A stretch of DNA of 37,289 bases. Source: Robiginitomaculum sp. (GTDB lineage Bacteria; Pseudomonadota; Alphaproteobacteria; Caulobacterales; Maricaulaceae). This document shows, piece by piece, positions 1 through 14,592 of the stretch. The stretch spans positions 1 to 37,289 of the forward strand of contig JAESTZ010000069.1 of the NCBI GenBank assembly GCA_016763315.1. Reading direction: 5' to 3'. The notes beneath the pieces were generated by a model, which saw only the letters and a list, made by a program, of their open reading frames with translations, ran no database searches and was not told the DNA's origin. Each line of letters starts with the position of its first letter. The first letter of the stretch is position 1. The position numbers were made by a program, and so were the translations under genes.

Positions 1-52
1 CCTTGTTTTGCACCTAATGGCAAAGGTGTGACTTTAAGTGAGGGTTATTTAG

Positions 53-130
53 CAAAGATTACACCCTTATTCACCCTTGTTAGCAATCAACAGGCGGGGA
101 TAAGTTTCAAGAATACCCCCAATATCCACA
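53..130 (-). repeat. Phased AAGGGT element, short copy
   Basis: Read on the minus strand this stretch has, in order, a DnaA-box-like TTATCC (103-98), two direct AAGGGT motifs starting exactly 10 bases apart (78-73 and 68-63), and AATCTTTG (60-53). The plus strand carries ATATCCACA at 122-130, one mismatch from the DnaA box TTATCCACA. The same order of motifs recurs at 12953-13014, so the two are related copies. Function is unknown; a protein-binding site is inferred from the spacing. Confidence 0.45.
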
Positions 131-305
131 CTTGCTATAATGGTCATGCAGCAGGTCATAAACTACCTGTTTGCGGATCTTTGACATGGTGAATACGTTC
201 TAAACTCAATAAAACGTGGGTTTGTTAGATGATTGTTACGAATGGTTGCGCCAACAACGAACCTTTTGCGTCGAGCCTTTTAACAATCTCTCCATAGGGA
301 AAACA

Positions 306-5250: not shown

Positions 5251-5364
5251 TGGTGTTACCGGTAGTTCCGGGCAATACCGCAAGATATAGTAGTGTATGA
5301 CTTTGGTTTACACCATATACCATGGTGCTAATGTGGAAACTTGTCCGTTAGGGGAGTGATTCGG

Positions 5365-8300
5365 ATGGCTGGTAACGGTCCTTGGAGTGTTAAGGGAATT
5401 GACCCTAAAGCTCGTGCTGCTGCTAAGGAAGCGGCGCAGCGCCGGGGTATGACTTTAGGCGAATGGTTAAGTGTGAAAATGCTTGAACCTGACACCGGTA
5501 ATTCTGCAACCGGACAAAGCCAAAACAACTTTCCTAGAAGCGTACTTGCTTCTTCCGAATATTTACCGCATCAAAACTTTCCCTCTCGTTCAGCAATAAA
5601 CGCAGATCATCGTCCAGCTGGCGATGAGCATTTGTTCACTGAAATTGAAAACCTTGCCCGTAGGTTAGAGGCTACTGAACACCGTTCAACTTTGGCAATA
5701 ACCGGAATAGACCAGACTGTTCTAGGCTTATTGGCTCGCCTCGAGGGAGTGGAGGGTTCGCAAGTTGACGTTACCAAGCAGTTGGAAAATTCGCTGCAAA
5801 CCTTAGATGTACGTCTTGGGCAAGCTGATATTGAGCTAGATGAATTAACTACCAAATTTTCACGCGAATTAAAAGATACCGCCAGACGCGTTGATACTAT
5901 TGGCGAGCAAACTGATACCAATAATAGCGCCATTCGCCACGAAGTCGGCAAAGATGTGGAACTGATCAACAATCGTTCTGATGAAATAAGTCAACGTTTA
6001 GCTAAGGCTGAAAAACAAACAGATGCGGCGATCCGCACTCTTGAGGCTAGTTTTGTTAGTATTGACACCCGTCTAAAATCTGCTGAAACGAGCTTGGAGC
6101 AAAATTCAGATATCGGATTGTCAAAAAAATTCGATGATCAATTCTCTTTGATCAGCCGTGAATTAATTAAAGTGGTTGCTGAAACAAGAGGCCAGCTTGC
6201 AGCACAGATAGAAGCCCATGCCGCCAATCCAAAGCTGGCGCAAATGGATGATGCTCTTAGTCGTATGCAGCAAAAGTTTGCCAATACTGAAAGCCGTCAT
6301 GCCAGCACTTTGGAAAAAATTGCTGTAGCGGTTGCAAAAATGGGCGATGCTGTTGAAGGTCGATTGCAAAAGTCAGAACAAAAGACAGAAAAGCAACTTG
6401 ATAGCATACAACAAAGCAATGCAAATGCCCTGGACAAGGTTGGTCATTCTATGGCCGAGGTCGCTAAAAGACTTGAAGTTAGATTGGATAGTATAGACCA
6501 GAAAGAGAAAGATAAAGCTGCCGAGAATGATTTAGAGGTGCGCTTACGGGAATCCGAAGCAAGAACCGGGGAACTGGTCGAGCAGGCTTTGCAGAGAGTT
6601 CATCAAAGATTGGATGCAACTGCAGATCAGGTAAGTAATGACCTTTCGCCGTTGCAACAGGCTTTAAATAAATTAACGGATCGTTTGGTGGCTATCGAAG
6701 AAAGTTCAACCCCGCCGTTTTCTGAACCAGATATTGAACAAGGCGATGAAATAGAGAGTAAGTTTCCACCGGAAGACAAGTCTTGGGAACAGGATGAAGC
6801 CTTGTATGGGCAGTCGGAAGAACTGGTTCCTCCAAGCGTTCCAGATGTAGATGTGGTTCACGAAAGTATTTATGGTACTTATACAGAACCCGGTCTTCCG
6901 TCATTAGGTGAGCAAGAGACATTCGGTGCTCCTCCTGAGTATTCTGGCAATTATGGTTCAACAGCTCATGACCAGTCATTGAATATTGGTGCGACCGCTG
7001 GCTCTGATTTTATGGCAGCTGCTCGTCGTTCTGTATTACAATCATCGCAAACCCCGCAAAAGACCGAGTACCCAGCAGGCCCGGCCGCCCCAGTGCAGGC
7101 GGGTATGACAAAGTCTGGTACCGATGGCGGTAATCGAAAGCTATTGGTTGCTGCCAGCCTGTTTGCAATAATTGCTATTGGTGGAGCTGCATCCGTTGCA
7201 GTGCTTGATTTCGGAGGGGCGGCAAATGCTGTGCCTGTGCTGGCTCAACAGGAACTAGCTGATCCAGTTCTTGATGGTTCTGATTCTTTGATGAGTTCGC
7301 GGAACCTAGATAAAAGTGATACTATTGTTCCAAGCCAAGTGAACTCTACCACAGAAACTCCAACATCATCGCCGGTATTGCTTACCAAAACCGAAACTAT
7401 AGTGAAACCAGCAGCACCAAATAGCTCCGGTAACACTGCTAATAAATCAAATGATACTGATGTTAAAGCTATAACGCCATCGGTAAAACAACTTGCTCAA
7501 AGGTCAACGGAACCGAAGAAGACGGTATCAAGAGCGCCAATTCTAACCAACGCTGTACAAACAATCAGCTCTAATCCGCCAGTAACATTGGTAAATACTA
7601 ATCCAATATCTTCTAGGCCAAGTCTACAACAGGCAGCTGTAGCAGGTGACCCTATTGCCCAGTATCAATATGCAATTTCTCTACTTGATAGCCGGCAACC
7701 GGAACAGGCAGCAACTTACATGCAACAAGCTGCAAACCGTGGTTTGCCTGCCGCACAATACCAATTGGCAAAGTATTATGAAAATGGAACGGGCTTAGCT
7801 ATTGATGAAAGCGAAGCTCGCCGTTGGACAGAACGAGCAGCTTATGGCGGTAATCGTCGAGCAATGCATAATTTGGCAATGTTCCATGCCGAAGGTAAAA
7901 CGGTTCCGCAAAGTTACGAAAGTGCGGCTAAATGGTTTGAAGAAGCCGCATTATTAGGTTTGGCGAATTCACAATTTAATCTTGCCTTGCTTTATGAGCA
8001 GGGGTTGGGAGTGCCCAAAAGCGTACCTGATGCTTATGCTTGGTACGCAATAGCTGCCAAGAAAGGTGATCGTGGGGCGGCGCAAAAACTTGAGGCACTA
8101 AAAGCAGCTCTTCCCGCAGAAGCGGTTGTAGAGGCTAATAAGATCACCGAAAGGTTTAAGCCTCGTCCTCTTGATCTGGCAGCAAACGGGGTGTTTCGCA
8201 ATGTAACTTGGGCTCGTCCGCAAGTTAATGACCAGACAGCGGTTAGCCGTGCTCAGGTATTGTTATCTAGAATGGGATATTCGCCTGGCCCAGCAGATGG

Positions 8301-8421
8301 AAATGTTGGTGAAAGAACCAGATTGGCAGTGATTTCGTATGAGCGTGATAACGGATTGGCTCAAACTGGACGAATAGATGCTAGTTTATTGAGTAAGCTA
8401 GAACGGGGCGCTGCAAATTAA
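5365..8421 (+). CDS. podJ: Polar localization factor PodJ
   Basis: A protein of 1018 residues with the full PodJ architecture. The N-terminus (PWSVKGIDPKARAAAKEAAQ and the following RRGMTLGEWLSVKML) is the conserved PodJ signature. A long coiled-coil region runs from about 80 to 450, then an acidic, proline-containing linker, one membrane helix at about 593-613, a Ser/Thr-rich periplasmic linker, Sel1/TPR-like repeats at about 757-905 and a C-terminal peptidoglycan-binding domain at about 960-1015. Caulobacter PodJ (974 residues) organises pole development and is shortened by periplasmic proteolysis. I chose ATG 5365 because AGGGGAG (5350-5356) sits eight bases before it; a TTG at 5341 would add eight residues but lies upstream of this ribosome-binding site. 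A GATTC (CcrM-type GANTC) overlaps the leader at 5358. Confidence 0.9.
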   Translation: MAGNGPWSVKGIDPKARAAAKEAAQRRGMTLGEWLSVKMLEPDTGNSATGQSQNNFPRSVLASSEYLPHQNFPSRSAINADHRPAGDEHLFTEIENLARRLEATEHRSTLAITGIDQTVLGLLARLEGVEGSQVDVTKQLENSLQTLDVRLGQADIELDELTTKFSRELKDTARRVDTIGEQTDTNNSAIRHEVGKDVELINNRSDEISQRLAKAEKQTDAAIRTLEASFVSIDTRLKSAETSLEQNSDIGLSKKFDDQFSLISRELIKVVAETRGQLAAQIEAHAANPKLAQMDDALSRMQQKFANTESRHASTLEKIAVAVAKMGDAVEGRLQKSEQKTEKQLDSIQQSNANALDKVGHSMAEVAKRLEVRLDSIDQKEKDKAAENDLEVRLRESEARTGELVEQALQRVHQRLDATADQVSNDLSPLQQALNKLTDRLVAIEESSTPPFSEPDIEQGDEIESKFPPEDKSWEQDEALYGQSEELVPPSVPDVDVVHESIYGTYTEPGLPSLGEQETFGAPPEYSGNYGSTAHDQSLNIGATAGSDFMAAARRSVLQSSQTPQKTEYPAGPAAPVQAGMTKSGTDGGNRKLLVAASLFAIIAIGGAASVAVLDFGGAANAVPVLAQQELADPVLDGSDSLMSSRNLDKSDTIVPSQVNSTTETPTSSPVLLTKTETIVKPAAPNSSGNTANKSNDTDVKAITPSVKQLAQRSTEPKKTVSRAPILTNAVQTISSNPPVTLVNTNPISSRPSLQQAAVAGDPIAQYQYAISLLDSRQPEQAATYMQQAANRGLPAAQYQLAKYYENGTGLAIDESEARRWTERAAYGGNRRAMHNLAMFHAEGKTVPQSYESAAKWFEEAALLGLANSQFNLALLYEQGLGVPKSVPDAYAWYAIAAKKGDRGAAQKLEALKAALPAEAVVEANKITERFKPRPLDLAANGVFRNVTWARPQVNDQTAVSRAQVLLSRMGYSPGPADGNVGERTRLAVISYERDNGLAQTGRIDASLLSKLERGAAN

Positions 8422-11936: not shown

Positions 11937-12740
11937 ATGGCAGATGAAATTAAAACACCGGCAACCAGTATTTCAGGAAATATGTTGTTTTATAAACAAC
12001 CGGAATTGCTGAATATCAAGGAACATGGTAAATTGGGGATTACGCCTCTTACTGAGAAGCCGTACGAGTTTTTGCGCGAAACACAATTGGTACCAATTAC
12101 TGTAACCGAGTTTGTTCACGCAGCGATGAATTTTCCGATAGTCTTTGCCGGGGAAGACAAGACACCAGCAGCAGTTATGGGCATGAAAGCGGATTCCAAC
12201 ATATTTGTCGATAATGAAGGACTTTTCGTAGAGGGTGCATATATTCCTGCCTTTATTCGCAGATACCCATTTGCCTCGGCAACACACGATGAGGATCCAG
12301 AAAACATGATGATCTGTTTTGATCGTTCTTCTCCGATGATAACCGAGAATTCTATAGCCCCATTTTTTGCAGGCACCGAGTTATCAGATACTACCAAGCA
12401 AGCAGTTGAGTTTGTGAAAAATTATGAAGCAGAAACTTTAGGCACTAGGAATTTTGTAAGAGTAATGCAGGAACTAGACTTGTTTGAAACACAAGATGTA
12501 AATGTCGCAGTGCCTAAAGAGGGTGAAGCTGGTGTTGTCGAACAGAAAATGGGTACTTATATGGGTATCTCTGAACAAAAAATGTTGGATTTAACACCGG
12601 AAAAACTAGCAGAATTGCGTAATAATGGCGGCCTGTCAGCTATGTATTCACATAGAATGTCACAAGCAAACTGGCAGCGTCTGTTGAACATGGAAATGGT
12701 TCGTGATTATAAAGAGCAACAAGAAGCTGAAAAATCTTAG
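11937..12740 (+). CDS. sapC: SapC family protein
   Basis: A 267-residue protein matching the SapC family (Pfam PF07277), named after a gene of the Campylobacter S-layer locus and widespread in Caulobacterales and related alphaproteobacteria. Typical features are the FVHAAMNFPIVFAG segment near residues 59-73, YIPAFIRRYPFA near 101-112, and a C-terminal helical part (SHRMSQANWQRLLNMEMVRD). It has no signal peptide. Its biochemical role is not known; a link to surface-layer export is inherited from the family name and untested here. A strong intrinsic terminator follows at 12770-12802, so it is probably monocistronic. The start is preceded only by a weak CAGGGC. Confidence 0.82.
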   Translation: MADEIKTPATSISGNMLFYKQPELLNIKEHGKLGITPLTEKPYEFLRETQLVPITVTEFVHAAMNFPIVFAGEDKTPAAVMGMKADSNIFVDNEGLFVEGAYIPAFIRRYPFASATHDEDPENMMICFDRSSPMITENSIAPFFAGTELSDTTKQAVEFVKNYEAETLGTRNFVRVMQELDLFETQDVNVAVPKEGEAGVVEQKMGTYMGISEQKMLDLTPEKLAELRNNGGLSAMYSHRMSQANWQRLLNMEMVRDYKEQQEAEKS

Positions 12741-12769
12741 AGCATTTTTAGTTGAAATTTGAAAAAATA

Positions 12770-12802
12770 TCCCGTTCTGGAATCTTCCAGAGCGGGATTT
12801 TT
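12770..12802 (+). terminator. Intrinsic terminator of sapC
   Basis: Two 12-base arms, TCCCGTTCTGGA at 12770-12781 and TCCAGAGCGGGA at 12786-12797, pair completely with one G-T wobble around a four-base loop, followed directly by five T. Confidence 0.85.
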
Positions 12803-12922
12803 AATGTTTCCCCACTAAATATAACTGTTTCAAAGCCCACCTTTCATTGAGCTTATTATATATTTACCATTTCAAACAGCCGTATCTGGCCATGTACAAG
12901 CCTTTTACCAAACCAGTATACC

Positions 12923-13070
12923 AAGGGTGGACAAAGCGGGCATGGATTGAAGTTATCCACGTTGCTCAAGGGTAGGTAAGGGTGAATGAGTATCAAATAA
13001 GGGTGCAATCTTTGGCAAACCATTATCTTTGTTTGCTAATAAGGGTCAGGCAAGGGTTAGCCCTGAGGGT
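12923..13070 (+). repeat. Helically phased AAGGGT iteron-like array with DnaA-box-like site
   Basis: AAGGGT occurs six times on the plus strand at 12923, 12968, 12978, 12999, 13041 and 13052, with a GAGGGT at 13065. From 12968 onward the start-to-start distances are 10, 21, 42 and 11 bases, each close to a whole number of helical turns. GTTATCCACG at 12952-12961 is one mismatch from the DnaA box TTATCCACA. AATCTTTG follows at 13007-13014, eight bases after the start of the fourth AAGGGT, exactly as in the related copy at 53-103 on the minus strand. This looks like a binding array for a DNA-binding protein; its identity is unknown. Confidence 0.5.
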
Positions 13071-13106
13071 CATGTGACTCTTGTTATGCACCCTAGTTAT
13101 GATTCT

Positions 13107-13233
13107 CGTCACTCCGGTGAAAACCGGAGTCCAGCCACCAATGGGAAACACACCAAGATCAGTCGGTAACTTGCGACCATTCCCTCTCGTTCCACTTGAC
13201 ACCTGTATCACCCGAACAAGTCTGGTGATGACG
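13107..13233. repeat. Composite hairpin repeat, copy 1
   Basis: The left half starts CGTCACTCCGGT with a perfect 8-base stem (13111-13118 with 13123-13130) closed by a GAAA loop and followed by CCAG. The right half is ATCACCCGA...GGTGATGACGG at 13207-13233. The two halves are inverted relatives separated by about 70 bases. Related copies are at 24343-24416 and 35756-35850. Confidence 0.6.
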
Positions 13234-13308
13234 GATTGGTGAAATTCAGTAGGCGTTTTTCCAGCCGGCGTTCTTGTATTTGCAAACCAGCTACCCTAGC
13301 CTAGGTGA

Positions 13309-14592
13309 GTGAAAACTGGACGTATCAAGAAACAAAGTTTTACCAAATTTGCTTTTATCGCTCTGGCAGGTCTCGTTCTTTGGTTGGGGTGGCCAATATA
13401 TGGTTTTGTTTCAAATCAATTCGAGACGGCCAGATTACCTTTTGGTTGGGTAGAGCTGCAAGATAATGCCCCTGCTGGGCAACAGCTTTATGACGAAGCC
13501 TATCTCGCTGCTGGGAATACCAGCTTGCTTCGGCTCATCGACCGCCGTAGCAAAATTCATGCGCCAAGCCTATCGGCTGCAGTTGCAATAGACGGTAAAC
13601 TTGTCTGGGCGGGAGCAGTAGGCTGGCAAGATGTAAAAGCGGGCATTGCTGCTACGCCGTCAACAATTTACCGGATTGGCTCAACATCCAAGGTGGTGAC
13701 AGCAACGGGACTGGCACGGCTTGTAACATCAGGAAATTTTGATTTAGATGTACCCGTTTCATCGTATTCTCCTGACTTACTTAATATTTCATGGGCTGAT
13801 TTAACCGCAAGACAACTTGCATCTCATACGGCTGGCTTGCCAGGATATGAAGAGAATACAGACTGGATCGGTTTCTATAAGAGCCTTGCTTTAACATCTA
13901 GTTTTGACAATCCAAAAGATGCTCTTTCCATGTTTGACGGTTCCGAGCTTGTGTATCAACCGGGCAGTGATTTTCTGTATTCCAGCTATGGCACCATATT
14001 GCTCAGCGCCGTAATGCAAGAGGCAAGTGGGTTGCCCTATTTGAGTTTAATGAACGAGACAGTTTTTGTACCGCTTGGTTTGCGCACTATAGAGCCTGAT
14101 ACAGCCCGTAATAATATGAAACACCGCGCCGTGTCTTACCAGACCAAAGGACGACAGGTTAAACCATGGCGCTCCGCCGATTTGAGTCATAAACTTGCTG
14201 CTGGTGGGTTTGTGGCATCGCCATCTGATTTGGTGCGGCTAGGATCAGCATGGCTTGATGAAGACTTTATTGCCCGCAATGTGCGTGACGACTTTTGGGA
14301 GCCTGTTCGTCTTACCAACGGCAATGTTAACATACAAGATTATGCTATTGGTTGGCGGCGCAAATCACGGACAATAAAGGGTGTTGGCTCCCTTACTCAC
14401 CTCAATCATGGTGGCATTTCGAAGGGTAGCCAGGCTTGGTTAATGATTGTGCCGGAATATGGAATTTCTGTTGCAATATCTACCAATAGACGAACAGATG
14501 TATTTTTTGACTTTGCCGATATTTATGAAAACTTTCTCGAAGAATTTATACCTGCTATACAAAAGCAACGTCTGGAAAACACAGAAAACTGA
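13309..14592 (+). CDS. Membrane-anchored serine hydrolase, beta-lactamase/transpeptidase-like
   Basis: A 427-residue serine hydrolase of the Beta-lactamase family PF00144 (class C beta-lactamases, DD-peptidases, esterases). A hydrophobic N-terminal helix (about 13-31) serves as signal or anchor. The catalytic S-x-x-K is Ser125-Thr-Ser-Lys128 in IGSTSKVV, the tyrosine motif is Tyr224-Ser-Ser226 in FLYSSYG, and the third box is His367-Gly-Gly369 in LNHGGISKGS. Tyr-Ser-Ser in place of Tyr-x-Asn and His-Gly-Gly in place of Lys-Thr-Gly point away from a true class C beta-lactamase and towards a peptidase or esterase. The start is a GTG with no clear Shine-Dalgarno. It stands alone between repeat-bearing intergenic regions. 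Confidence 0.8.
   Translation: MKTGRIKKQSFTKFAFIALAGLVLWLGWPIYGFVSNQFETARLPFGWVELQDNAPAGQQLYDEAYLAAGNTSLLRLIDRRSKIHAPSLSAAVAIDGKLVWAGAVGWQDVKAGIAATPSTIYRIGSTSKVVTATGLARLVTSGNFDLDVPVSSYSPDLLNISWADLTARQLASHTAGLPGYEENTDWIGFYKSLALTSSFDNPKDALSMFDGSELVYQPGSDFLYSSYGTILLSAVMQEASGLPYLSLMNETVFVPLGLRTIEPDTARNNMKHRAVSYQTKGRQVKPWRSADLSHKLAAGGFVASPSDLVRLGSAWLDEDFIARNVRDDFWEPVRLTNGNVNIQDYAIGWRRKSRTIKGVGSLTHLNHGGISKGSQAWLMIVPEYGISVAISTNRRTDVFFDFADIYENFLEEFIPAIQKQRLENTEN

Follow-up and report, generated by a model that had tools for sequence, protein, structure and literature searches.

A phased AAGGGT array in Robiginitomaculum belongs to a dispersed multicopy element that is a candidate small-RNA gene family

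The window analysed here, a stretch of 37,289 nucleotides from Robiginitomaculum sp., contains an array of AAGGGT motifs that forms one end of an element of roughly 300-450 bases, dispersed in about 55 copies over the same genome (G000). The best reading of this element, which we hold with moderate confidence, is a multicopy family of small-RNA genes, specific to the genus, with promoters that would carry a phased array for an activator, both transcription and activator being deduced from sequence. Directly computed are the family itself, its copy number, its near restriction to the genus, the spacing from -10 box to boxA, covarying hairpins and the likeness of the boxA to that of the rRNA leader. 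If transcribed, the family would stand out among small-RNA gene families by its unusual size, its near confinement to one genus and its ribosomal antitermination signal outside rRNA.

The AAGGGT array and its phasing

The initial annotation reported six AAGGGT motifs on the plus strand, and all are exactly in place, at 12923 and at the five array positions in Table 1; the distances of 10, 21, 42 and 11 bases, counted from the second copy, and the TTATCCAC site starting at 12953, 15 bases ahead of 12968, are likewise confirmed. Membership of the array has to be narrowed to the five copies from 12968 on, whereas the motif at 12923 touches the predicted -10 region (12914-12923). Across the window AAGGGT is not enriched (15 observed versus 16.65 expected on both strands). 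The clustering is extreme and far beyond chance: six copies lie on one strand within 135 bp, and none of 300 Markov-simulated windows had more than three. The only other AAGGGT pair 10 bp apart in the window, at 63 and 73 on the minus strand, is explained by a second element copy at the contig start.

Phasing was measured on pairs of words 8-60 bp apart, as the share lying at most 1.5 bp off a multiple of 10.5 (expectation 0.34). The share was 0.71 for AGGGT in G000 and its sister genome G009 (107 copies), 1.00 for AGGGTC in G014 and G006 (28 copies) and 1.00 for G[CT]GTCAA in G012 and G015 (12 copies, 11 pairs). The longer word A[AG]GGGT reached just 0.56 in G000 and G009, because spacings of 13 and 14 bp are likewise frequent. 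Helical phasing, as first proposed for the window array, is thus borne out by phased spacings throughout the element family. The accompanying idea of a multi-site regulator region holds for the layout, in that phased decamers with a word specific to the species group lie upstream of a conserved promoter-like motif, from which we infer binding. Neither the membership in a repeat family nor the promoter- and boxA-like motifs on the other strand had been visible to the initial annotation.

Family size and distribution

A BLAST search of 41 genomes with the intergenic DNA of the window (12741-13330) returned matches in 13 of them; the element itself was matched in G000 and G009, and the matches in other genomes were mostly to short repeats further downstream. 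A covariance model (R1) built from 26 copies (alignment A1, 26 of 28 copies) had, among the matches listed at E<=0.001, 55 in G000, 55 in G009, 34 in G014, 25 in G006, 11 in G015 and 10 in G012, with no more than one in any of the remaining twelve genus genomes; at E<=1, G000 had 59. A sequence-only model built from 41 copies of six genomes (alignment A2, 41 of 147 copies) matched 17 of the 18 genus genomes (E<=0.01, among the matches listed), and the best seven genomes had 63, 58, 50, 34, 24, 21 and 20 listed matches. Both searches scored at most 150 candidates per genome.

A sample of 119 genomes of the taxonomic family, searched under stricter filters, contained 14 genomes with a match at E<=0.001; thirteen of these are genus members, and the only match outside the genus, in one genome of another genus, is weak and covers 44 positions. 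A pattern scan of named species gave, among the 80 matches listed (at least 100 stretches), 68 in Robiginitomaculum MAGs and 12 in scattered taxa, the latter taken for chance. The family is therefore nearly restricted to the genus. The comparisons below use the copies retrieved, namely 53 of 55 from G000 and 54 of 55 from G009, together with 18 of 34 R1 matches from G014, 10 of 25 from G006, 6 of 10 from G012 and 6 of 11 from G015.

Element copies in the window and motif order

The window holds two copies (Table 1). R1 matches copy 1 at G000:C44:12860-13032 (129.7 bits), and the BLAST family match covers query 92-358, equivalent to window 12832-13098, with an M1-like site at 12807. Copy 2 is matched at G000:C44:35-196:- (146.4 bits); its -10 TATAAT is intact (133-142 on the reverse complement), its boxA has one change (GATCTTTGACA) and its M1 lies at 287-303. 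Copy 1 shows decay, its -10 box reading TATACT, GACA in its boxA having become GAAA and its M1 being degraded as well; judged by these motifs, it may be dead.

Table 1. Coordinates of the element copies and associated features in the window
Feature	Position	Strand	Remark
Element copy 1	12807..13098	- (predicted transcription)	end at 13098 approximate
Phased array	12968..13057	+	AAGGGT at 12968, 12978, 12999, 13041, 13052; putative activator-binding region upstream of the minus-strand promoter
Imperfect palindrome, family form AAGGGTCACGTGACCCTT	13065..13082	.	far end of the array
TTATCCAC	12953..12960	+	one-base variant of family motif M4 (TTATCCCC)
Copy 1 -10 region, TGGTATACTG	12914..12923	-	family TGYTATAATG; degraded
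Hairpin P1 region	12880..12910	-	hand-counted position, alignment A3
boxA-like M2, here GCTGTTTGAAATGGTAAATA	12861..12880	-	family GCTSTTTGACATnGTRAATA; degraded
Hairpin P2 region	12833..12854	-	hand-counted position, alignment A3
Degenerate M1 (family TTTCCCCnnnGGATAAA)	12807..12823	+	motif scan
Inverted repeat with A- and T-runs	12765..12802	.	likely sapC terminator, possibly also that of the minus-strand RNA; putative role
SapC-family neighbour gene	11937..12740	+	3' end toward the element
Element copy 2	1..303	+ (predicted transcription)	truncated by contig start

Read in the AAGGGT orientation, the family has the motif order M1, M2, M3, M4, decamer array and, at the far end of the array, complementary words. 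M1 is TTTCCCCnnnGGATAAA and ends 90-92 nt ahead of the model start in most of the G000 and G009 copies listed; M2 is TATTYACnnTGTCAAASAGC, M3 is (C)ATTATARCA and M4 is CTTATCCCC. The array word changes with the species group, being AAGGGT in G000/G009, AAGGGTCA in G014/G006 and AAGCGTCAA in G012/G015. Several more distant members have, by eye, GAGGGACAAT or an AAGGGGC-like word, the G016 copies differ again, and M4 in several distant members is GGGGATAAG or resembles the palindrome TTATCCCGYGGATAA.

Promoter-like and boxA-like motifs and hairpins on the minus strand

The opposite strand reads, with nearly fixed spacing, as an extended -10 box, hairpin P1, a boxA-like GCTSTTTGACAT, hairpin P2 and usually a T-run. 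Reverse-complemented, M3 gives TGYTATAAT, which is an extended -10 box (TGnTATAAT); M2 gives GCTSTTTGACAnnGTRAATA. The interval from the end of the -10 box to boxA measures 34 nt in nearly all G000/G009 copies (100 of 104) and 31-35 nt in most other copies; inspection of the family copies by eye revealed no recognisable -35 box.

A 16S gene was obtained from two of the ten genomes searched, G009 and G014, and the rRNA leaders of both have GGCTCTTTGACATCGT located 235-252 nt ahead of the 16S start motif, with a weaker relative, TTTGACATTGTAAAG, after the 16S gene. This leader motif, shared with the reverse complement of M2, is by its sequence identified as boxA. The gamma-proteobacterial boxA consensus is GYTCTTTAANA (PMC5725501), and the host here is alphaproteobacterial. 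The leader 11-mer GCTCTTTGACA occurs exactly in 9/50 G000, 26/54 G009, 17/18 G014, 10/10 G006, 3/6 G012 and 3/6 G015 copies. At boxA position 4, where the rRNA leaders have C, 35 of 50 G000 and 17 of 54 G009 copies have a different base. In form, the putative boxA of the element is that of the same lineage's rRNA leader, some copies excepted.

The hairpins were assessed on an alignment (A3) of 98 of the 107 G000/G009 copies, from which seven broken or near-duplicate copies had been removed by hand and two by script (N or identity). The P1/P2 cells pair in 89.5% of cases, against at most 50.7% with slid partners, and the covariation score was 0.215 versus 0.187 +/- 0.005 in shuffles, none of the 500 equalling it. 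Paired cells, double-change cells and covariation score each exceeded all 500 shuffles; the other two of the five measures, pairs with double change (7 versus 6.7) and further pair types, stayed at shuffle level. The copies share a conserved, covarying RNA structure, measured among relatives whose kinship is not fully controlled. At P1/P2 pairs G-U outnumbers A-C by 352 to 44, or by 186 to 44 once two almost invariant U-G pairs are set aside, figures that are not independent events because the copies are related; this excess indicates an RNA read from the minus strand.

Folding of P1 against shuffles gave mean z values on the minus strand of -1.43 in G000 (n=50) and -1.97 in G009 (n=54), compared with -0.93 and -0.94 on the plus strand and -0.21 and -0.24 in the neighbouring upstream stretch. 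The preference runs the same way in G006 and G012; the strands are equal in G014 (minus -1.21, plus -1.19) and the preference is reversed in G015 (minus -0.17, plus -1.18, n=5). Global consensus folds of the minus strand are weak in G014/G006 and in G012/G015, probably because the variable parts align poorly. An RNA from the plus strand was rejected, as its consensus folds are weak and its covariation slight (one fold on 95 copies), and so was a coding function, the frames being closed, with only 0-4 of 105 copies per frame open over 200 nt.

Ends and gene context

Beyond M1 a T-run is present in 41/45 G000, 49/52 G009, 13/18 G014 and 7/10 G006 copies. A hairpin signal ahead of it is absent in G000 and G009 (mean z 0.02 and -0.13) and weak and uneven in G014 and G006, where it occurs in some copies only. 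Because the T-run lacks a preceding hairpin in G000/G009, the 3' end of the predicted RNA is uncertain; its length would be about 150-200 nt. Among the copies examined, the upstream gene has its 3' end toward the element in 20/32 (G000), 28/34 (G009), 14/18 (G014), 7/10 (G006), 5/6 (G012) and 5/6 (G015).

Inferred mechanism and alternative explanations

We propose that an activator could bind one DNA face of the phased array, and perhaps also M4 (TTATCCCC), and would bring RNA polymerase to a promoter of the extended -10 type in which no -35 box is recognisable. In the predicted RNA, a hairpin at the 5' end would be followed by a boxA of the rRNA type and then by another hairpin, after which a variable stretch would lead to a T-run close to the neighbouring gene's 3' end; the boxA would recruit Nus factors. 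It is quite doubtful, but conceivable, that abundant boxA RNA from about 55 genes soaks up NusB-S10 and so ties rRNA synthesis to the array activator, with word and activator co-evolving and exchange among copies changing the word, within each species group, at dozens of loci. Against such a Nus-factor decoy stands the base other than C at boxA position 4 in most G000 copies (35/50), and function in E. coli is abolished by boxA mutations, those at position 4 among them (PMC5725501). The family would also provide a natural example of a phased regulator-binding array that has apparently shifted in concert across dozens of loci, a good many of which have kept their position, and co-variation among sister species would be a route to finding the regulator.

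An untranscribed DNA site is an unlikely explanation that still deserves some weight. Here the array would be bound by a nucleoid- or chromosome-organising protein at about 55 sites per chromosome, and phased arrays, palindromic motifs, dispersal and words specific to the species group would all fit; the order and spacing of -10 box, hairpin and boxA and the strand-specific G-U excess would not be expected. The iteron origin with a DnaA box that was initially considered shares only its layout with the element (phased repeats, TTATCCAC and nearby A+T-rich DNA). This reading is contradicted by a copy number of about 55 dispersed sites per genome, most of which have TTATCCCC in place of TTATCCAC, and nine scanned window proteins include no replication initiator, nor was there a plasmid match, so that its probability is practically negligible. 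Searches for an origin in phages, plasmids or viral contigs were likewise without match.

Somewhat less likely than a DNA site is a non-autonomous, MITE- or REP-like mobile repeat, with a transposase encoded elsewhere and promoter and hairpins merely incidental. Dispersed intergenic copies, recent near-identical copies and mosaics would suit it, but 31 of 53 G000 copies have their upstream gene in common with a G009 copy, and an unsystematic look noticed no terminal repeat, target duplication or autonomous copy. At the one locus inspected for this, that of L010 in G009, the DNA behind the same gene is unrelated and unreadable as a clean empty site. We think it improbable, finally, that the element is a dispersed promoter and boxA leader for long transcripts, running antisense into a convergent gene or serving as the leader of co-directional genes. 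Long untranslated transcripts, rRNA and CRISPR arrays among them, are known to be sustained by boxA (PMC7862264), the next gene is co-directional in 12/32 G000, 6/34 G009 and 4/18 G014 copies, and G000 and G009 have no clear terminator hairpin; in most copies, however, the next gene is convergent, usually preceded by a T-run.

Possible exchange and rearrangement among copies

The upstream flank is common to G000 and G009 copies in 31 of the 53 retrieved from G000 (L037 and L225 omitted as ambiguous), and a small number of positions have a counterpart in G012, G014 or G015. Inside the stretch from about -100 to +290, G000/G009 pairs from the same locus show no more likeness than random pairs, while their flanks do (25 upstream and 18 downstream pairs compared); saturation of neutral sites could partly account for the missing likeness inside the element. 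Exact tracts of 50-278 nt link different loci of one genome, mostly inside the element, although some extend to the ends of contigs, points at which shared words make assemblers break off, and there are near-identical recent copies such as L242, L244 and L245. Mainly because the exact tracts join different loci within one genome, this pattern suggests sequence exchange among copies.

Fourteen elements have both flanks beside G009 elements, six with the same partner and eight with different ones (L020, L037, L040, L048, L049, L228, L229 and L231); L049, L228 and L229 form a closed three-way exchange. L039 was left out of the partner-switched set for its repeat-like downstream match of 202 bp. 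The upstream match of L037 is ambiguous, the downstream matches of L020 (318 bp, 70%) and L231 (219 bp) are short, and L048 lies within a stretch nearly identical to G009. These switches suggest that elements may sit at rearrangement points, with misassembly at repeats also possible. Half-elements that seemed 100% identical between species, the far half of the window copy among them, were discarded since an exact-match search disagreed for that copy, short end-gap-free overlaps being the likely cause.

Separately, stretches of 1171 nt (G000:C91 / G009:C21; L012, L024) and 716 nt (G000:C2 / G009:C12; L048, L246) are identical between species, with flanks that differ by about 4-12%, and reflect either recent between-species recombination or MAG cross-contamination. 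The G014 copy L080 and the G015 copy L094 lie in the same gene neighbourhood with the element oppositely oriented, as minus-strand flank matches indicate.

Relation to known systems

The window has no Rfam match at the gathering threshold, and one better copy, L026, none at E<=1. Literature searches over open-licence full texts, subscription papers being outside their scope, brought up no description of such an element among the titles and abstract openings listed. By analogy, the closest kinds are multicopy sRNA families, such as FopS of Bacteroides with 14 members (PMC11697453) and SisA-D/alphaR8 of Caulobacter (PMC12559287). Like these, the element would make up a clade-conserved group of related small RNA genes spread over several loci of a single genome. 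Unlike FopS and SisA-D (4-15 copies), it has about 55 copies, a boxA inside the predicted RNA and a long phased array upstream.

A further related kind is the dispersed intergenic repeat, examples being REP/BIME, MITE and Neisseria NIME. The element resembles these repeats in being dispersed, intergenic, mosaic and mostly placed behind genes, and differs in its promoter-like motif order, RNA-type pairing and phased array specific to the species group.

In the rRNA leader, boxA is the NusB-S10 antitermination signal (PMC5725501). The GCTCTTTGACATnGT motif is common to the element and the G009 and G014 leaders, and a hairpin comes before boxA. In the E. coli rRNA leader, the boxB hairpin precedes boxA. 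In contrast to such a leader, the element has no rRNA downstream, its boxA position 4 is often altered in G000, and leader, promoter and array are by eye otherwise dissimilar.

Other repeats and genes observed nearby

Downstream of the element, at window 13108-13134 and about 13203-13233, are two short repeats found in many genus genomes, one the palindromic GTCACTCCGG..CCGGAGTCCAG and the other near GGATCACCCGAACAAG; the palindromic one presumably resembles Neisseria dRS3. Upstream of the element in L019, L021 and L221, among others, there is another repeat of about 55 nt, AGCAATGCTAACAAAAGTGGGAACCGGTTTTGTGGTAAAGCATTGCG, which takes the place of the M1 part in a small number of copies; in further copies it is located downstream. 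A short repeat of about 65 nt, partly tandem, occurs dozens of times in G014 (L041 query 1587-1654, L010 query 419-493). Elsewhere in the window, 5341-8421 encodes a protein of 1026 aa that has Sel1 repeats and, at its C terminus, a peptidoglycan-binding domain.
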